Assembly: GCA_029067355.1 (NCBI GenBank)
Contig: JAIEEQ010000078.1
Coordinates: 1 to 46,634, forward strand
Direction of reading: 5' to 3'
From: Anaeroplasmataceae bacterium
GTDB taxonomy: Bacteria > Bacillota_I > Bacilli_A > Acholeplasmatales > Anaeroplasmataceae
Length of the DNA: 46,634 nt
The translations under genes and the position numbers were made by a program. A model generated the notes under the pieces. It made no database searches and was not told where the DNA came from. It was given only the letters and a program-made list of their open reading frames with translations. Positions 3,976 to 46,537 of the stretch are shown here, piece by piece; the stretch's first letter is position 1; each line of letters begins with the position of its first letter.

Positions 3976-6525
3976 TTACTCCTCCTTTAGCTCATAAAGA
4001 AGCTTGAGTGCTTCTAAAGGCGTTAAATGATTCAAATCAATTTCTTCTAAGCGCTTTAGTGTTTGTTCAGCTCTAGTTTCCTTTATAACCTCTTCTTTTG
4101 CGTCATATTCCTCAAAATTAAATAAGTCTAAGGCGATTCCCTTTTCTTTTCCAGATTCCTCTTCCAACTGCTGTAAGATAATCTTGCTTCTAGCAATTAA
4201 GGATTTTGGAAGACCAGCCAGACTTGCCACATTGATTCCATAGCTTTTATCTGTTGGTCCATCAAGTACCTTATGAAGAAAGGCAACACCCTGCTCTGTT
4301 TCCTTAGCTTCAACATGCACATTCTTTAAACGCTTAAGCTTTTTATCCAAGATGGTCAATTCATGATAATGCGTAGAAAAAAGAGTTACGCAGCCAATTT
4401 TTTCATGAACATATTCTAAAATCGCTTGTGCGAGTGCCATTCCATCATAGGTTGCAGTTCCTCGTCCAATTTCATCAAATAAAATTAAGCTATTCTTTGT
4501 TGCATTTGAAATAGCATAGTTTGCTTCCATCATTTCAACCATAAAGGTAGACTGTCCTGAAACTAGGTCGTCTGATGCTCCAATACGAGTATATATCGCA
4601 TCAAATAGCATTAAATTAGCAGTTTTTGCAGGAACAAAGGAGCCAATTTGAGCCAAAATGACAATTGAAGCAAGCATACGCATATAGGTGGATTTACCAC
4701 TCATATTTGGTCCTGTAATCAACATCATATTGAATGCATTAATATCCACATCATTGACAATATATCCTGATTTCATAATGGTTTCTAATACAGGATGTCT
4801 TCCATCCACAATGGTAACCTGACGTTCTAAATTAAAGGTAGGACGTACATAATTATTAGAAACTGCAACATCACTTAAGGAGATATAACAATCAATAGTA
4901 GCAAGACGGTTTGCAAGATCCTGTAATGAGGAAATATAGAAAGAAGCCTTGGTTCTTAACTGAGAAAAAATTTCATATTCAATGGATACAATTTGGTCAT
5001 TAGAATGCAGAACAATATCCTCATATTCCTTGAGTTCCTTTGAAATATATCGTTCTGCATTCGTTAAGGTAGCTCTCCTTTCATAGCCAATATCCTCTGG
5101 TAGGCTAGCAATTGCTCCCTTAGAAATTTCAATATAATACCCAGTAACACGATTATAGCCAACCTTTAGAGTCTTAATTCCAGTAAGCTCCTTTTGTGAA
5201 CGTTCATAATTTAAAATCCATTCCTTCCCATTGCTTAGAATTGATTTTATTTCATCTAATTTAGCATCAAAGCCCTCCTGAATCATTCCTCCTTCTTTGA
5301 TAGAAAGTGGTGGATTATCTACTAAGGCCTGCTTTAATAGAGTATAAAGCTCCTGATGTGTTTCTATTTGATTAGCATAAGACGTTGCAGTATCTAGGTC
5401 AAGATGATATAAAAGCTCTTTAATTTCAGGAATAAACTGTAAGGATTTTCTTAACCATACTAAATCCTTTGCATTTGCATTGCCTGAAGCAATTCTTCCT
5501 ATAATTCTTTCCAAATCATAAACACTTTTAAAATATTCCTTAATTTGACTTTTCTCTAAATAATGGGTGTTAAAGCATTCAATAAAATTCAATCGTTCCT
5601 CTATACGATTTAAATCTAACAAAGGCTTATCAAGCCACTTATGCAGCATTCTAGATCCCATTGCTGTTTCACAATGATCTAAATGCCATAGCAAAGAGCC
5701 TGATTTATTATTAAACCGAAGTGTCTCACAAAGCTCTAAATTCTTTTTTGTAAAAGCATCTAAATGTAAATACTTTTCATGGATGTAGCTTTGAATCTTC
5801 TTCAAATGGGTTGGCATTTGCTTTTTGGTTTCAATAAAATAATGAAGAATGACTCCAATTGCAGGATAATAGTCCTCCTCTATTCCAGCAACAATAGGTA
5901 ATAGCTCAGATGGAATAGAGCTTTCTTTAACATAGGATAATACAATTTGATTCTGCCTTACAAATTGAAGAAGCTTCGCATTCATATATCCATCCTCTAC
6001 TACAATTTCCTTGATATGTAAAGAAAGTAGCTCATTGGCTAGAATCTCAAAGCTCTCTAGCTTTGTAATACTTCCTTCCCCTGTGGAAAGATCACAATAG
6101 CATAAAAGATATTCTCTTTTCATCTGAAGAATACCTGCAATATAATTATTTTCCTTATCATTTAATCCTGAATCCAGCGTTCCAGGTGTTATAATCTTTA
6201 CAACACCTCGCTTGACAATGCCTTTAGAGGCCTTAGGATCTTCTACCTGTTCAACAATGGCAACCTTATATCCCTTGGCAATCAGTCTTTCTGCATAGGG
6301 TTCATAAGCATGAAAAGGGACTCCACACATGGGAACCCGTTCCTTTACTCCAGCATCCTTTCCTGTTAAGGCAAGCTCAAGCTCTTTAGCTCCTGTATGA
6401 GCATCCTCAAAAAACATTTCATAGAAATCTCCAACTCTATAAAACAAAATGGTATCTGGATAATCTTTTTTAATTTCAATATATTGCTCCATCATAGGAG
6501 TATATTTCTCAATTTTTTCTTTCAT
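3976..6525 (-). CDS. mutS: DNA mismatch repair protein MutS
   Basis: Recognises base mismatches and small loops, then signals to MutL. The mismatch-reading Phe-x-Glu is in FYRVGDFYEMF near the N-terminus. The ATPase domain has GPNMSGKSTYMR (Walker A), ILFDEIGRGT (Walker B) and STHYHELT (switch His). I start it at the ATG at 6525, which has GAGGGAG just upstream and gives 849 residues, the normal size. Upstream in-frame codons to 6576 have no ribosome site and overlap the preceding ORF. The gene follows that acidic membrane ORF by 11 nt, so the two are co-transcribed. Confidence 0.97.
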   Translation of the reverse strand: MKEKIEKYTPMMEQYIEIKKDYPDTILFYRVGDFYEMFFEDAHTGAKELELALTGKDAGVKERVPMCGVPFHAYEPYAERLIAKGYKVAIVEQVEDPKASKGIVKRGVVKIITPGTLDSGLNDKENNYIAGILQMKREYLLCYCDLSTGEGSITKLESFEILANELLSLHIKEIVVEDGYMNAKLLQFVRQNQIVLSYVKESSIPSELLPIVAGIEEDYYPAIGVILHYFIETKKQMPTHLKKIQSYIHEKYLHLDAFTKKNLELCETLRFNNKSGSLLWHLDHCETAMGSRMLHKWLDKPLLDLNRIEERLNFIECFNTHYLEKSQIKEYFKSVYDLERIIGRIASGNANAKDLVWLRKSLQFIPEIKELLYHLDLDTATSYANQIETHQELYTLLKQALVDNPPLSIKEGGMIQEGFDAKLDEIKSILSNGKEWILNYERSQKELTGIKTLKVGYNRVTGYYIEISKGAIASLPEDIGYERRATLTNAERYISKELKEYEDIVLHSNDQIVSIEYEIFSQLRTKASFYISSLQDLANRLATIDCYISLSDVAVSNNYVRPTFNLERQVTIVDGRHPVLETIMKSGYIVNDVDINAFNMMLITGPNMSGKSTYMRMLASIVILAQIGSFVPAKTANLMLFDAIYTRIGASDDLVSGQSTFMVEMMEANYAISNATKNSLILFDEIGRGTATYDGMALAQAILEYVHEKIGCVTLFSTHYHELTILDKKLKRLKNVHVEAKETEQGVAFLHKVLDGPTDKSYGINVASLAGLPKSLIARSKIILQQLEEESGKEKGIALDLFNFEEYDAKEEVIKETRAEQTLKRLEEIDLNHLTPLEALKLLYELKEE

Positions 6526-6536
6526 TGCTCTCCCTC

Positions 6537-7487
6537 TTACCTTAATGCCTTTAGAATAGCAAATATAGAAATACAAGCTCCTATAAAAAGAACTATGGAA
6601 AGAATAGAGATAAAAATTTGCTTACGTTTAGAAAGAATTTTTTTATTCTTGAAGTATGGATTATGCTCTAAAAGAAGCTCATCTTCCTTTTTATAATTTT
6701 CTGGATTTGGTTCAGTTAAAAGCAGTAAGGGCTCCTTATCATTTATTTCTAAGTGCTCTTCCTTTACTTCCTCTAAAGCCGTTTCCTCAGATAAAGCTAT
6801 TCCTTGCTCTTCTTGTGCCTGTAATGTAGGCTCCTCTTCAGGGGCAAATTCAGGGTCGTAGCTTTCATTTTTTAGTTCTATTTCTTCTTTAGGCTCATGT
6901 GAAATCTGTTGTGGTTCATTATAAACGAATTCTTCTTTTGAATCTAGACTTCTAGATTCAGTATCTAAAGGCGTTTCGTCAATTTCAGAATTCTTAACCT
7001 CAAGTGCAGGTTCTGCTGAATCCAGAGGGGAATCCACTGGATTATCCATTTTTAAATTGATTGTTGAGGTTTCATCCTTGCTTGCTTCTTCCTCTAAAAT
7101 ATGTGTTTCAGAAGGCATCTCCTCAGGCGAAGAAAGCTCATAGCTTTCCTGTTCAATTACAGGAACTATCTTTACTTCCTCATCATCATCCACAGGCTCA
7201 AAGTCTAAATTATCAAATTCTTCTAATTCGTCATCCTCTATTTCTTCTAGAATTATTTTTTCCTTTGAAGTTTTCTTTAGACTTTCTATTAGGATAGCCA
7301 CACGTCTTTGCTTCTCCTCTTCTTCTAAAGAGGTTGTCTTTGAAGCAGAGGTTTTCTTGCTTTCTAAAACAGAATCAGACCATTTTTTTTCTAATGCCTT
7401 TTCTGATTCTTTTAACTTATTTATTTTTGCTAAAATTTCTTCTAATAATTGCTCATTTCCTGTTTCTTTTTTCTCTTTCGCAGGCAA
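6537..7487 (-). CDS. Acidic ORF with C-terminal TM anchor, probably expressed by frameshift fusion to the upstream gene
   Basis: No family recognised. The frame is rich in Glu and Asp, low in complexity and probably disordered over most of its length. It ends in a basic patch (KNKKILSKRK) and one transmembrane helix (about residues 290-313: IFISILSIVLFIGACISIF), so it looks tail-anchored with the acidic part in the cytoplasm. The first 120 residues contain no Met. The only initiation codon is a TTG at 7487 without a ribosome site. The frame is also open upstream through the A10 run at 7518-7527, where a -1 slip from the preceding gene would enter it. I therefore think its normal start is inside the fusion. 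The alternative is a single gene broken by a homopolymer indel. It is transcribed into mutS, 11 nt away. Confidence 0.6.
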   Translation of the reverse strand: MPAKEKKETGNEQLLEEILAKINKLKESEKALEKKWSDSVLESKKTSASKTTSLEEEEKQRRVAILIESLKKTSKEKIILEEIEDDELEEFDNLDFEPVDDDEEVKIVPVIEQESYELSSPEEMPSETHILEEEASKDETSTINLKMDNPVDSPLDSAEPALEVKNSEIDETPLDTESRSLDSKEEFVYNEPQQISHEPKEEIELKNESYDPEFAPEEEPTLQAQEEQGIALSEETALEEVKEEHLEINDKEPLLLLTEPNPENYKKEDELLLEHNPYFKNKKILSKRKQIFISILSIVLFIGACISIFAILKALR

Positions 7488-7501
7488 AGGAGCTGGCTTT
7501 T

Positions 7502-8665
7502 TTACTGTTTCAAAGTCTTTTTTTTTTGGGAAACAGAAGAATCCTTTTTTGGGGATGCAGGCTTAGCTTGTGGAATTTTTATTCCATAAGCAATCGCCAT
7601 TTTCGCTGTTTCCTCATCAATATTTAAGTAAGGCAGAAGCTTTCGGATAATATCAGTAGCTAAATCCTCCTGCTTATTTTTTTTCTTTGGAGCTTCAACC
7701 ATTGGCTCAACAAGCTCATCTAGCGCTTCTAATCCAGCCGTATCATCCTCATCAAAAAAGATTACCTTTTTTGGTCTACCCCTTTTAAAATTATCAATTG
7801 CATCTAAATCTACTCTAAACTTTAATGGCTCTGTAAAGCTCATTCCTAAAATTGTATTTGCTTCAATCGCAGGAAAATTTGCCTGCTTGATAAGGAATAG
7901 AAAAAGATTGATCAATTCCTCTTTTTTCATTCCAGAGGAAATTCCTAAATTCTGCAAATAGCAAAAATCATTTAGCTGGGTAATGGTCATATTATTAAGC
8001 TCTCTTTGTAAAACTAAAGTAAGCTTTCTTTTGGCCTTCATCATATCCTTGACATACTGCAATAAATCTTCCTTTTTTAAGCGAAGAGGGATATTAAATC
8101 CATATTTGCTTCCCAAAGAACGAATTTCATCCTGAGAAAAGGAGGTCTTGAGTAAATTCTCAAAATTAGCTTTTGGATAAGCATCAAATTCCTTTGGCAA
8201 ATCTAAGGTCACACTAAAAATAGCCTTAGAGTAATCCATAAAGTTTTCAATAGAAGCGTATTTCTTCATATTAAGTAGGCGCGTTACTTCTCCATCTAAA
8301 AGATTGATTCCGCCATGATTCTTAATCAATAGCTTCCATAAATTTTTACGATATGTGTAGAAATCCTCATCTGTTCCTACTTTTTCAAAAAGGTTTTGAA
8401 GCTGAAATTCAGTAAACGATGCATAGGATTCAAGCTTAACAAACGCGTCCTTTGTTAAGGAATGAGAATTTAAGGTCTTAATTCTCTCATTTAAAGCCCC
8501 TCTTAATGCCATTGCATTTATTTTTCTTGGAATCATAGTTGAACGCTCAGTAAAAAACTTTTTTGTCTGCTCCCCAGTCAACAAGGCAAGCTTTGATACA
8601 ATAGTTTCTAAACCCATTCTTCTATCAAAAATCACTACGATTTCTTTTCCATCGATATATTCCAT
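7502..8665 (-). CDS. Putative nucleic-acid-binding protein with two SAP/Rho-N-like motifs and an AT-hook-like patch
   Basis: Not assigned to a named family. About residues 176-212 (SQDEIRSLGSKYGF...KKEDLLQYVKD) and 226-262 (TITQLNDFCYLQNLGI...KKEELINLF) both have the helix-loop-helix pattern of SAP, HeH or Rho-N DNA/RNA-binding motifs. RGRPKK at 295-300 has the core of an AT-hook. The rest is helical, with a basic, Lys-rich end. The 387-residue product ends shortly after an A10 run that contains an in-frame A AAA AAG. A -1 slip there would extend it to about 709 residues with a membrane anchor. It is the first gene of the unit leading to mutS and mutL and has its own promoter at 8702-8730. 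DNA binding is inferred from weak motifs only. Confidence 0.75.
   Translation of the reverse strand: MEYIDGKEIVVIFDRRMGLETIVSKLALLTGEQTKKFFTERSTMIPRKINAMALRGALNERIKTLNSHSLTKDAFVKLESYASFTEFQLQNLFEKVGTDEDFYTYRKNLWKLLIKNHGGINLLDGEVTRLLNMKKYASIENFMDYSKAIFSVTLDLPKEFDAYPKANFENLLKTSFSQDEIRSLGSKYGFNIPLRLKKEDLLQYVKDMMKAKRKLTLVLQRELNNMTITQLNDFCYLQNLGISSGMKKEELINLFLFLIKQANFPAIEANTILGMSFTEPLKFRVDLDAIDNFKRGRPKKVIFFDEDDTAGLEALDELVEPMVEAPKKKNKQEDLATDIIRKLLPYLNIDEETAKMAIAYGIKIPQAKPASPKKDSSVSQKKKTLKQ
7517..7523 (-). other. A AAA AAG slippery heptamer within an A10 run, possible programmed -1 frameshift site
   Basis: In the frame of the upstream gene the codons read CAA AAA AAA AAG ACT, then reach TAA at 7502-7504. 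A -1 slip on AAA AAG continues as GAC TTT GAA ACA straight into the downstream acidic ORF, with no stop between. A AAA AAG is the heptamer used by E. coli dnaX. A weak hairpin (CTC-TTT with AAAGAG) lies about 28 nt downstream and AAGGA about 18 nt upstream, both farther away than in dnaX. The evidence is therefore the heptamer and frame geometry, not a full signal. Confidence 0.5.
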
Positions 8666-9045: not shown

Positions 9046-11076
9046 TTAAGCATCTTCCTTTCCTAAAGATTCTGGTGTTATAGAAAATGTATTTGAAATC
9101 CCATCTTTTGAATACTCAAAAGGAAGCTTTGCCACAGATTCTAAGGACGCTAATGCTCCCTTGACATCTCTTCCATGCATTGGGTTAGCTCCAGGTGCTA
9201 AAGGCTCTCCTGCTCGTCTGCCATCGGGAGTATTTCCTGTATTTTTCCCATAAACAACATTTGAGGTGATTGTTAAAATGGATGTAGTTGGAACAGAATC
9301 ACGATAGGTTGTGTGCTTTTTGATTTTACTCATAAAGGTTTTAATAAGCCAAACTGCAATTTGGTCAACGCGGTCATCATTATTACCATATTTAGGAAAA
9401 TCCCCTTCTCTTTTAAAATCAATGATGACACCAGCCTCATTACGGATTGGGTAAACCTTAGCATACTTGATTGCAGATAAGGAATCAGCAGCACAGGATA
9501 ATCCTGCAATTCCAGTAGCAAAAAATCTTCTAACCTTTGTGTCGTGCAAAGCCATTTCTAAGGCTTCATAGGAATACTTGTCATGCATATAATGGATTAA
9601 ATTCAGGGCATTTACATATATACCAGCAAGCCAGTCCATCATCTGCTCATATTTCTTTATAACCTCCTCATAGCAAAGAGGTCCATCTCCTTGAATTCCT
9701 TCAAATAATGGGGAAACCTGAAAAGGCTTTTTGGTTTTAGAATCAACTAAAAGCTCATCCTTACCCCCATTTAAAGCATATAATAGGCATTTTGCAAGAT
9801 TAGCTCTTGCTCCAAAGAATTGCATATCCTTTCCAATCCGCATTGGAGATACACAGCAGGCTATGCAATAATCATCTCCCATTTCAGGTAACATTAAATC
9901 ATCTGATTCGTACTGAATAGAGGAAGTCTTAATTGAAATTTCTGCACAGAATCGTTTAAAGGAGATAGGTAGATTTTTACTCCACAAAACCGTCAAATTC
10001 GGCTCTGGGGCAGGTCCTAAATTAATTAGTGTGTGTAATATACGAAAGGCTGTCTTTGTGACAAGCGGTCTTCCATCCATTCCCATTCCCCCTATTGATT
10101 CTGTGACCCAGGTTGGATCTCCTGAGAATAGCTCATTATAGGATTGTACTCTCATGAATTTGATAATTCTAAGTTTCATTATGAACTGATCAATTAGCTC
10201 CTGAGCCTCAAGCTCTGTAAGAACCTTTCTTTTAATATCCCTCTCAATATAAATATCTAAAAATACAGAATTTCTCCCAATAGACATCGCAGCCCCATTC
10301 TGTTCCTTTGTGGCAGCTAAATAGGCAAAGTATAGAGCCTGAATGGCTTCTCTTGCTGTACTAGCAGGCTTTGAGATATCACATTTATAGATTCTTGCAA
10401 GCTCCTTTAGATTCTCTAGAGCACGAATTTGCTCAGATAATTCCTCTCGCTTTTGTATTTTTTCTGCTGTCATCTCTCCATCAAGTAAAGCTTTATCTGC
10501 TTCCTTATGGCGGATTAGCTCATCTACACCATATAGGGCTACTCTTCTATAATCTCCTACAATTCTTCCTCTTCCATAAGAATCTGGAAGCCCCGTCAGG
10601 ATATGTGCCTTTCGACAGGCACGCATTGCAGGAGTATAGGCATCATATACCCCATCATTATGTGTTTTACGATACTTTGTAAAAATCTCTTTTATTTTAT
10701 CGCTTACCTCATAGCCATACATTTGACACGCCTGAACAGACATTTTAATGCCTCCATACGGCTGTAAGCTACGTTTAAAAGGCTCATCAGTTTGCAGCCC
10801 TACAATTTTTTCTAAGCGCTCATCAATATAACCTGCTTTATGACTTGTTATTCCTGACACAATATCAGTATCTGCCTTTAATACTCCTCCAGCCTTTCGT
10901 TCTTCAATAGACAGCTCTAATATTTTGTTCCATAAGGCAATCGTATCCTTTGTTGGCTCCTGCAAAAAGCTTGAATCTCCAAAATAAGGAATATAATTTT
11001 TTTGTATAAAATCTCTTACATCAATTTCATTACTGCTCCATTTTCCAGGCACAAAGCCTTCCCATGCATCCATCAT
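9046..11076 (-). CDS. pflB: Pyruvate formate-lyase core subunit lacking the glycyl radical domain
   Basis: Cleaves pyruvate with CoA to acetyl-CoA and formate in anaerobic metabolism. The active-site pair is Cys407-Cys408 in [12 protein letters not shown], matching Cys418-Cys419 of E. coli PFL. Other family blocks are [40 protein letters not shown]-like [15 protein letters not shown] and [24 protein letters not shown]. The protein is 676 residues and ends in [12 protein letters not shown], exactly at the hinge before the glycyl-radical domain, which other PFLs carry on the same chain (about 750-760 residues in total). Core plus the 76-residue downstream product add up to 752. The start overlaps the pflA stop by four bases (ATGATGG) behind AGAGG. 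Confidence 0.95.
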
Positions 11077-11822
11077 ATTTTTCCTCTTTTCTTTTTTTCT
11101 ATTCCTAATATCCTTTTTGCTTGTTCTATTTCCTTCTTTGTTGGTGGTAAAACATTTTCTAAGGGATAAGGAATACCTAAATTCTGATATTTTATTATGC
11201 CCATAGTATGGTAGGGCAATACCTCTATTTTTTCAACAGTATCAAGTGTTGAAATAAATTCCTTTAGCTTTTCTAAATCTTCTACCTTTGAGGTGATTTC
11301 TGGAATCAGGACATGCCTTATCCAAATTTTTTTGTTATGCTCTGATAAATATCTTGCAAAAGCCAAAATGTTTGAATTATCTTTCCCTGTCAGCTTCTTA
11401 TGCTTCTTTGGATCAGCTTGCTTTAAATCTAGCAAAAATAAATCCGTAACCTCCATAAGGCGCTGATGAGCCAAAACATTTTCAGTTTGATTAGGATTGA
11501 ATGTGATTCCAGAGGTATCACAGGCGGTATGAATCCCTCTGTCTTTTAGCTGCTTAAAGAGTTCTGTTACAAACTCTATCTGCAAAAGAGGCTCTCCTCC
11601 TGATGCTGTAACGCCACCCGTTTTTCCAAAGTAGCTTCTATATTTTAAAATTTCTGATAAAAGCTCCTCAATTGAGTAAATTGTCCCATTATCCTTTGTC
11701 CAGGTGTCTGGGTTATGACAGTACTGACATCGCAAGGAGCACCCTTTAAAAAATATAACAAACCGAATCCCTGGCCCGTCTACTGTTCCAAAGGATTCAA
11801 TGGAATGAATTCTTGCTTGCAT
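11073..11822 (-). CDS. pflA: Pyruvate formate-lyase activating enzyme (radical SAM)
   Basis: Uses S-adenosylmethionine and a [4Fe-4S] cluster to place the radical on the PFL glycine. The cluster motif is [14 protein letters not shown] (Cx3Cx2C) near residue 30, after [25 protein letters not shown] is the SAM-binding GGE block, and HTACDTSG and DLFLLDLKQ are typical later segments. The length of 249 residues is normal for a PFL activase. The gene comes first in the operon, ahead of pflB, the reverse of the familiar pflB-pflA order. In this split system it has to act on a free domain or on the two-part complex. GGAG precedes the ATG. No clear promoter is visible in the 50 nt after the upstream terminator, only a poor T-rich -35 with TACTAT. 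Confidence 0.95.
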
Positions 11823-43957: not shown

Positions 43958-44831
43958 TTGCTTCTCCTCCTATGATTTTCTTCATATCGTAAGGAATAGG
44001 CTTTTCAAGGCATATAATCTGTTTTGTTACTGGATGCTCAAAAGAAACCCTGTAAGAGTGAAGCATCACTCTTTTAGCCTTCCCCTCTAAATTTCCATAA
44101 AGCTCATCTCCTAAAATAGGATGTCCTATGGAAGCAAGATGAACTCGAATTTGATGAGTTCTACCCGTCAAAAGATTTACCTGAACTAAGCTAAAGCCCT
44201 TATACTCCTTTAAAACCTCATAATCTGTTATTGCTCGTTTTCCAGTTTTGGATATTCTCTTTCTTTGCTGATGATGACGATCCTCTCCAATTGGTGCATC
44301 AATTCTTCCTGCTTTTTCTTTAAATCTCCCCTTAGCAAGACATAAGTAGGTACGCTTAAGCTCATGTGTAGAAATTAGATAATCTAGCTTTGCAAGAGTT
44401 AAGCTATCCTTAGCAAAAATCAGAATTCCCGTAGTATCTATATCTAATCTATGAGCATACCGAACTGGATATGACCATCCCTTATTCTGATAATAGTAGG
44501 CAACAATATTACACATCGTGCCTCTCTTTTTCTTATCATCAGGATGAACTAAAATATGGCAGGGCTTATTTACAATCAGCAAATAGTCATCCTCAAATAA
44601 AATATCTAACTTCTTTGGATCAGGTAAATAGTCTAGCTGTTCCCTATCCTCAAGAGTGAGAATATCATTTTCCTTGAGAATCTCTTGATGAACAGCAGGC
44701 TTTCCATTCAGCCTTACTCTTTTTTCTTGAAATAAAAGATGAAGCTTTGTTTTCCCTAAATGAAAGCCCTCTATATATTCTTTTATGGATTTGTCAGAAT
44801 CCTTATAAGATATTTTATAGTTTGTCGTCAT
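43929..44831 (-). CDS. RluD-type pseudouridine synthase with N-terminal S4 domain
   Basis: Makes pseudouridine in rRNA. The first 75 residues form an S4 RNA-binding domain (KSIKEYIEGFHLGKTKLHLL, VRLNGKPAVHQEILKENDIL). The catalytic domain has YAHRLDIDTTGILIFAKD with the catalytic Asp, and LLTGRTHQIRVHLASIGHPILGDELYG (read in parts). The family cannot be placed more exactly from sequence alone. I start at the ATG at 44831. The frame is open to a TTG at 44849, and neither has a strong ribosome site, so coupling to the upstream phosphoesterase gene (overlap 17 nt) is likely. Length is 300 residues. Confidence 0.92.
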   Translation of the reverse strand: MTTNYKISYKDSDKSIKEYIEGFHLGKTKLHLLFQEKRVRLNGKPAVHQEILKENDILTLEDREQLDYLPDPKKLDILFEDDYLLIVNKPCHILVHPDDKKKRGTMCNIVAYYYQNKGWSYPVRYAHRLDIDTTGILIFAKDSLTLAKLDYLISTHELKRTYLCLAKGRFKEKAGRIDAPIGEDRHHQQRKRISKTGKRAITDYEVLKEYKGFSLVQVNLLTGRTHQIRVHLASIGHPILGDELYGNLEGKAKRVMLHSYRVSFEHPVTKQIICLEKPIPYDMKKIIGGEANDSNLSKKN

Positions 44832-45936
44832 GGATATACTTTGTTTCAATTAAACCAATAATACCCTCATGCTTGATTAAACTATAAGGCAGAGCTTTTT
44901 TGATTATTGAAATTTCGTCTCCTTTTTTCAGATTTAAAAATGTATTTGAACCATCATAGCAATAGGTTTTATTCTCACTTTTAAAAATAAATTCCTCATG
45001 TACCCAAAGCTCATCTAAAGTTCCTTTAGGACGAATCAAATAAAAATCTAGGTCCTTAGTAAGAACATCAACCTCATTTTTACCAAACCGCATAGAAATA
45101 TGATTTTTTGGCTGGTCATACATAATATCCTCTACTACCTTGTATTTAGGATAATGATCTACGGCTATCCAGTGAAATTGCATTGTATCTAGAGAGTCAA
45201 GGTAAACGACATTAAGCTGTCCACCCTTAACCACATTATTTCCTCCATCTAGGCAGATGATATTTTTTCTAAAATCAAAAATAGGATTGACAGAAGCTAC
45301 ATCCACTCGATAATTTCTTGTAGGGTTATGACCCACAATCATTGTGATAGGCTGAATAGGACTTGCTTCTAAAAAATGATCATATTTTAGTAAAGATAAA
45401 GCTTCTTTAGGAATATTATATATATCATTAATTCCCCCATGAACCAAAACAAGTAAATCATTAATGAAAATGACATCTGGAAGCTCTTCAATAAACTTAA
45501 AATATTCAGGATAGCTTTCTTCTATCTTTTTAATATAATCAAGGATATCCATATCCTTAGAAATTGGATAATTCATATCTGCTGCCATATCATTAATTAC
45601 AGATTTCTTTAAATCTGTTGCATAATACAGAAATCTTTTTTGGTCTAGGGGTGGAAGAATGAAACGAAAAACCTCATCACAATTTCCTGCTAAAAAGAAA
45701 ACATTATCCCTTTTTGATAGCTCTAAACAATAATTAAGCATTGACTGATTATCTAAAGGATCCCCCTTCTCAATCATATCGCCAATAACAAAGAGGTAAT
45801 CTTCTGCACAGAATTTAGCCTCCTCTAGGGCCCGTTTAAAAAGCGTAATATCTCCATGAATATCACTCATAAATAAAATTCGGCGATGAAGCTCAAGCTC
45901 AAGCCTTATTACTTTAGTTTTCTTGATCTTGTCCAC
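44815..45936 (-). CDS. Calcineurin-like metallophosphoesterase
   Basis: The N-terminal half is a phosphoesterase: FMSDIHGDITLF (metal ligands Asp and His), VIGDMIEKGD (second Asp), LAGNCDEVFR (Asn-Cys-Asp, the GNHD/GNxD block), LVHGGINDI (His) and IVGHNPTRN (His). The last 100 residues are outside the core and beta-like. The substrate may be a phosphoprotein or a dinucleotide; unknown. The start is GTG at 45936 with GGGTGAT upstream. It overlaps the queH gene by 23 nt. Length is 373 residues, long for this family. Confidence 0.86.
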   Translation of the reverse strand: MDKIKKTKVIRLELELHRRILFMSDIHGDITLFKRALEEAKFCAEDYLFVIGDMIEKGDPLDNQSMLNYCLELSKRDNVFFLAGNCDEVFRFILPPLDQKRFLYYATDLKKSVINDMAADMNYPISKDMDILDYIKKIEESYPEYFKFIEELPDVIFINDLLVLVHGGINDIYNIPKEALSLLKYDHFLEASPIQPITMIVGHNPTRNYRVDVASVNPIFDFRKNIICLDGGNNVVKGGQLNVVYLDSLDTMQFHWIAVDHYPKYKVVEDIMYDQPKNHISMRFGKNEVDVLTKDLDFYLIRPKGTLDELWVHEEFIFKSENKTYCYDGSNTFLNLKKGDEISIIKKALPYSLIKHEGIIGLIETKYIHDDKL

Positions 45937-46537
45937 TACACATCACCCTTTCCTGTTTGGAATATTTGCAGCCACAATAGTCCTGACGATAAAGCTGATA
46001 TTCTTTTGATAATTGTATTGAATGCTTATAGCCTTCTTCTTTTTTAAAATCAGAATAGAGGTATTGAACTCCATATACTTTTTCTAATTCTTCACCAATC
46101 TCATTAATCCAAGAGGTAACCTTGTAGGGTGAAATCGATAGTGTCGTAGTAAAATAATCGAAGCCAAGTTCTTTTGCTTTTTTAGCTGTTTTTTCTAAGC
46201 GAAGCTTATAGCAAGCATAGCAACGTTTGCTTTTTTCTCCAAGAGCTTCTAGCCCTGAAACTGCTTCAGCATAATCCATAGGCTGATAGGAATCATGAAG
46301 AACCTGAAGGGTAGAATCAACTTCCTTACAAAAGCGAATTTCCTCCTCTAAGCGATGTATATATTCTTCCTTAGGCTCTATGTTATCATTAGAATAAAAA
46401 ATCGTAATTTGAAAATATTTCTTCAAAAAAAATAAAGTATGAGAGGAGCAAGGTGCACAGCAGGAATGAAGTAATAGTGTTGGACGATGCTTTAGGGTAG
46501 ATAAAAATGTCTTCACTTCCTTATAGTTTTTTAGCAT
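45914..46537 (-). CDS. queH: Epoxyqueuosine reductase QueH
   Basis: Reduces epoxyqueuosine to queuosine in tRNA, replacing QueG in many bacteria. The metal and cysteine motifs are present: HSCCAPCSS near residue 25, KRCYACYKLRLE in the middle and YCGCKYS at the end. FDYFTTTLSISPYK is another family block. Length is 207 residues. The ATG follows GGAGG and is the first gene of the operon that includes the phosphoesterase, RluD-type and ABC genes. The operon promoter is at 46570-46598. Confidence 0.92.
   Translation of the reverse strand: MLKNYKEVKTFLSTLKHRPTLLLHSCCAPCSSHTLFFLKKYFQITIFYSNDNIEPKEEYIHRLEEEIRFCKEVDSTLQVLHDSYQPMDYAEAVSGLEALGEKSKRCYACYKLRLEKTAKKAKELGFDYFTTTLSISPYKVTSWINEIGEELEKVYGVQYLYSDFKKEEGYKHSIQLSKEYQLYRQDYCGCKYSKQERVMCSGQDQEN

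Follow-up and report, generated by a model that had tools for sequence, protein, structure and literature searches.

A conserved A10 run in a split gene next to mutS of Anaeroplasmataceae is probably a programmed transcriptional slippage site

To our knowledge, few cellular genes are known in which transcriptional slippage is productive and has evolutionary support. In dnaX of E. coli, a frameshift yields the shorter product and an upstream Shine-Dalgarno (SD) sequence as well as a downstream hairpin are used. An RNA hairpin just before the run is a possible stimulator of slippage (compare the Roseiflexus IS). In tssM1 of Citrobacter rodentium, an A11 run lies 28 nt before the stop codon and 20-25% slippage was found with no ribosomal stimulators (PMC4256274). 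Many genomes select against runs of about nine A or T, a sign that slippage occurs on them (PMC1088944). For Thermus dnaX, a review linked the presence of tRNA-Lys(CTT) to its reliance on polymerase slippage (PMC5009743). Here, a gene interrupted at an A10 run was analyzed in a window of 46,634 nt (contig JAIEEQ010000078.1) from the 1.79-Mb draft assembly of an Anaeroplasmataceae bacterium (labelled G000).

On the minus strand of the window, an ORF with an ATG start extends from 8665 to 7505 (387 codons) and carries the A10 run near its 3' end (Table 1). It ends with GTT TCC CAA AAA AAA AAG ACT TTG AAA CAG TAA, the stop codon (7502-7504) being located five codons past the run, and the -1 frame has no stop between 7562 and 6540. 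An earlier note on this DNA had described the same layout, with A10 at 7518-7527, a stop at 7502 and a joined product of about 709 aa, and this proved correct when the sequence was read again. The heptamer A_AAA_AAG indeed lies in the phase claimed there, and a change of frame at A10 does join both ORFs, an arrangement that is kept in five more species. Past the run, the first possible start in the -1 frame is a TTG at codon 10 that is not preceded by an SD sequence and the first ATG is codon 133, matching the claim that the downstream ORF has no early Met and only a TTG without ribosome site.

Table 1. Positions of the split gene, its parts and the adjacent mutS in the window
Feature	Position	Strand	Evidence and remarks
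mutS	3976..6525	-	Pfam MutS I-V; start codon lies 11 nt beyond the long product's stop
-1 frame continuation, 326 codons + TAA (acidic linker and predicted tail anchor)	6537..7517	-	Long product 709 aa in total; dN/dS 0.22-0.25 and third-position-biased substitutions between closest species
Single predicted C-terminal transmembrane helix IFISILSIVLFIGACISIF, followed by the short tail AILKALR	6561..6617	-	Kyte-Doolittle 2.8 over 19 residues; like the tail in homologues
Linker peptide of the long product, DFETVKKPAPLPAK			
Frame-0 ORF, short (putatively soluble) product ending in ...SQKKKTLKQ, 387 codons + TAA	7502..8665	-	Homologues in 45/55 family genomes
A10 run, putatively slippery, C AAA AAA AAA AAG context with in-phase A_AAA_AAG inside	7518..7527	-	Sequence; A10/A11 at the same codon position in seven species
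Two tandem SAP/Rho_N-like helix-loop-helix motifs (residues 163-266)	7868..8179	-	Pfam Rho_N, model, SAP structure

To compare the locus within the genus, 11 genomes were used, one per species; the records of the relatives are named Anaeroplasmataceae, Mollicutes or Anaeroplasma and come from several sequencing projects. A homologous protein was found in 10/10 other species. The same split layout is present in five of them (G006, G004, G002, G007 and G003; 66-72% protein identity), that is in 6/11 species when the window is included. G006, G004, G002 and G007 have C-A10-G in the phase of the window, and in G003, where the gene lies on two contigs overlapping by 25 residues, the run is A11 followed by T, since the last AAG codon is AAA, with the frame relation unchanged. 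The run context of the split species reads CAA AAA AAA AAR (A10 or A11). Frames 0 and +1 are closed within 2-7 codons after the run in all six, and the -1 frame is open for 326-372 codons (348-372 in the five relatives) and ends in the same kind of transmembrane (TM) tail (NPYF...FAILHAFK). G001 carries A10 at the corresponding site but shifted by one base: frame 0 goes on for 307 codons there and the two remaining frames stop after 6 and 1 codons. With G001 included, A10 is found in six species and A11 in one, all at this position of the gene. In the other four species (G005, G010, G008 and G009), the ORF is continuous and the A10 run is missing. Continuous relatives lacking an A-run had been named in the earlier note as grounds for rejecting the split; they exist (G005 and G010) beside relatives that keep it, and so do not refute it. 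Trees of MutS and of the part of the protein encoded before the run (N-part) gave weakly supported and partly conflicting branching, which does not settle the number of split origins, and a single origin is therefore not claimed.

The chief concern raised before, a sequencing error at A10, is removed by the same split in five further species. Draft metagenome assemblies and a homopolymer are what a decayed gene or an error of sequencing or assembly would be expected to come with. However, the frame relation is identical in six species from several projects and the -1 ORF is under purifying selection. In the -1 frame, most differences affect the third codon position (43, 35 and 90 in the closest pair). 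The three closest pairs give dN/dS values of 0.22-0.25, the linker of distant pairs being too diverged for dN/dS to be informative. By these substitution patterns, the extended -1 ORF evolves as a protein under purifying selection. As judged from the genomes compared, the A10 split did not arise by an error of assembly or by recent mutation, and error or decay retains almost no probability.

Runs of ten or more A are rare in the genus: 33 sites were found in the 11 genomes, and 7/33 are at this codon position, more than chance would explain. Only two others occur in the 1.79-Mb assembly of the window, both at contig ends. No similarity of the flanks at the run was detected among the other A10+ sites tested. 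At one contig end each in the window assembly (G000:C16) and in G007 (C101), A10-11 is followed by a long G-run, which resembles poly-G read artefacts of assembly. A second A10 in G006 (C39:900-3400, run at about 1222) lies between a 415-codon leucine-rich-repeat-like ORF and an overlapping 258-codon ORF in another frame, and marks this gene as a candidate for slippage or phase variation. Within the N-part, synonymous sites are near saturation between distant species (pS about 0.7), and the three synonymous positions able to shorten the run, in CAA, AAA and AAA, are unchanged in 6/6 split species. Given the codon use of the gene itself, CAA AAA AAA has a chance of about 0.22 per row, and no joint probability is given since the rows are related to each other. 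Against the slippage reading, the early closure of both other frames is no more than mildly unusual in each species (0.12-0.32).

It was also considered that the downstream ORF is a separate gene that uses its own start or reinitiation, for which the frame-0 stop falling within the -1 ORF would be suitable. This is very improbable, as the first ATG after the run is found at codon 42, 133, 134 or 151, the start codon is not conserved and none of these ATGs is preceded by an SD sequence. In relatives, moreover, the C-part is continuous with the N-part in one protein.

The A10 run is probably a programmed slippage site of transcriptional nature that yields a short soluble and a long membrane-tethered form. 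RNA polymerase would stutter on A10, giving a share of mRNA with one extra A (or 1+3n). From the unslipped mRNA, likely the majority, a soluble protein of 387 aa with two SAP/Rho_N-like motifs would be made, and from the slipped mRNA the same N-part plus about 326 residues (acidic linker and tail-anchor helix), a membrane-tethered form of 709 aa. Transcripts one A shorter would give the short form too, because stops close both other frames after 2-7 codons. With A10 or A11 in every case, the run is longer than a ribosomal heptamer requires and has the length expected of programmed transcriptional slippage genes, an uninterrupted run of about nine or more A or T within coding sequence.

Alternatively, the long form could be made from unedited mRNA by ribosomal -1 frameshifting at A_AAA_AAG, with tandem slippage of tRNA-Lys as in E. 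coli dnaX. The heptamer is in phase in 5/6 split species and is A_AAA_AAA in the sixth (G003), an in-phase slippery A_AAA_AAA is also present in G001, and the window species has an SD-like AAGGA whose first base lies 19 nt upstream of the run. This SD-like site is restricted to G000, however, and none was found upstream of the run in the other five split species. A conserved downstream hairpin is absent (z -1.2 to +1.8 at 60 nt), and in 7/7 species folding of the next 60 and 90 nt gave no clear gain in stability over shuffles (z -1.6 to +1.8). The remark in the earlier note that the expected stimulatory signals are not at dnaX-like distances agrees with this. Furthermore, the genome encodes the cognate tRNA-Lys(CTT), and by the argument made for Thermus a single tRNA-Lys slipping over AAG becomes less likely (PMC5009743). 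Ribosomal slippage would also leave the conserved run length of 10-11 unexplained. Polymerase slippage is thus favored over the dnaX-type ribosomal reading of the earlier note, which has lost ground: transcriptional slippage explains the overlong run, the variant heptamer of G003, the changed phase of G001, the lack of stimulators and the presence of tRNA-Lys(CTT). We consider ribosomal frameshifting as the source of the long form unlikely; as A_AAA_AAG is kept in 5/6 split species, it could contribute in addition to polymerase slippage.

Upstream of the run, a hairpin of the ACTACT...AGTAGT type at about 30-36 nt, ending a few nt before A10, was predicted in G006, G002 and G001 (z about -3) and was absent in G000, G004, G007 and G003, the other species among the seven with A10/A11 that were folded. 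As a general feature of the site it was rejected, being found in only 3/7 species; where present, it is possibly a stimulator of polymerase slippage, or due to chance.

A change at the level of DNA was considered as well, in which slippage at A10 toggles the long form OFF and ON, the more frequent state being the one seen in the assemblies. Homopolymer runs are well-known contingency loci, a poly-A run in p78 of Mycoplasma fermentans among them (PMC3711429), and G001 sits in the in-frame state. Against phase variation, all six split species share one frame state with none in the +1 state, and the relation of run and frame is unchanged where the run is A11 through the AAG to AAA difference (G003). 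Phase variation is therefore rated as improbable, and transcriptional slippage remains the preferred reading.

Concerning the function of the encoded protein, Pfam Rho_N matched 25/30 relatives (best E 1.2e-9), and profiles of Rho_N, SAP and HeH matched up to 25/30. The window protein scored E 5.4e-4 and 20.3 bits, below the Pfam cut-off of 24.9. A 104-aa model of residues 163-266 (pLDDT 91) aligned to the SAP domain 1h1j with Z 4.2 and rmsd 2.2 over 43/44 residues, and to 4l8r_E (entry of the 3'hExo/SLBP complex) with Z 5.8 over 50 residues, both modest values for small helical domains. A Foldseek search with this motif model gave no significant match. The SAP-like assignment of the earlier note thus gains weak support from the profiles in relatives and from the SAP structure, while the window protein itself stays under the Pfam cut-off. 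The rest of the N-part has a confident predicted model, but no convincing fold was identified with Foldseek and VIA-align on the 387-aa model. NCBIfam and phage records contained no match for the window protein, and weak hits to hemagglutinin and ASF1 (E > 0.04) in a PDB sequence search with the full profile were taken as chance. The likeness to SAP, Rho_N and HeH-LEM proteins lies in two tandem motifs, matched weakly but repeatedly by the profiles, and in a structural match of SAP size; the remainder of the N-part, lacking a convincing known fold, and the sub-threshold score of the window protein set it apart from them. The linker of the long product contains 30% D/E. A basic stretch before the predicted C-terminal helix and a very short tail suggest a tail-anchored protein with a cytoplasmic N-part. 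The N-part is probably a nucleic-acid-binding-like protein that would be made in a soluble and a membrane-tethered version.

Homologues were found in 111/150 genomes across the order, and a TM segment lies close to the C-terminus in most of those inspected. In the other genus that was inspected in most detail (loci L014-L032), the ORF is continuous with a hydrophobic tail at its end. The idea of soluble and membrane-tethered products put forward before fits this picture, because continuous homologues of the family mostly end in a TM tail. Against the proposal, G005 and G010 make do with a continuous long-only form, so that the short one is not required across the whole genus. G056, from the same order, encodes a soluble paralogue of 384 aa and, as a separate gene, a TM-anchored one of 446 aa, a pair that corresponds to the outcome slippage would reach from one gene. 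In G020 (C25:43500-48500), an 854-codon ORF with a TM tail contains two tandem copies of the N-domain (44623-45525 and 45652-46512).

Downstream of the split gene, mutS is followed by mutL and miaA. Directly upstream of the split gene, genes for pyruvate formate-lyase and a radical-SAM protein, probably the pyruvate formate-lyase activating enzyme, are located on the minus strand (9046-11822 of the window). It is conceivable, although we hold it for rather doubtful, that slippage at the A-run sets the ratio of free to membrane-tethered nucleic-acid-binding protein, as a tunable tether of chromosome or RNA to the membrane in wall-less bacteria. On the same tentative footing, since 11 nt separate the end of the long form from mutS, the slippage event might also pass ribosomes on to mutS through translational coupling. 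Such a coupling would tie a homopolymer run to a mismatch-repair gene.

Taken together, the comparison of genomes indicates that this gene is a real, conserved slippage-type split, which follows the known principle of two length variants in a gene family and group for which no earlier report of productive transcriptional slippage was found in the literature searched, either for the family or for this group of Mollicutes. As the family, the clade and a continuous form of the gene are available, it can be traced within one genus how a slippage site is gained, kept and changed in phase, here in uncultured gut Mollicutes (Anaeroplasma). If the proposed slippage is true, this protein is cut in two by gene callers in a set of species, and annotations lack its membrane form.

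In comparison with known systems, the gene shares the in-phase A_AAA_AAG heptamer with E. coli dnaX and differs from it in that SD sequence and hairpin are not conserved and a second tRNA-Lys is present. It closely resembles C. rodentium tssM1, where an A-run just precedes a premature stop, an added A restores the C-terminal region and two length variants result (PMC4256274). In tssM3 of Yersinia pseudotuberculosis the phase is reversed and slippage truncates the product (PMC4256274), to be compared with G001. TssM is an unrelated membrane component of the T6SS, and measurements were made on tssM of the slippage itself, of the ratio and of whether both forms are needed (PMC4256274), whereas slippage in the window gene is predicted from sequence. 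With dnaX of Thermus thermophilus (A9; PMC1088944, PMC3711429, PMC5009743), in which polymerase slippage gives long and short products, the gene has in common the shared N-part and nearby stops in the wrong frames; the Thermus protein differs in being a clamp-loader protein with no membrane anchor. Split dnaX genes with 10 A's (PMC1088944, PMC3711429, PMC5009743) have the same two-ORF layout as the window gene.
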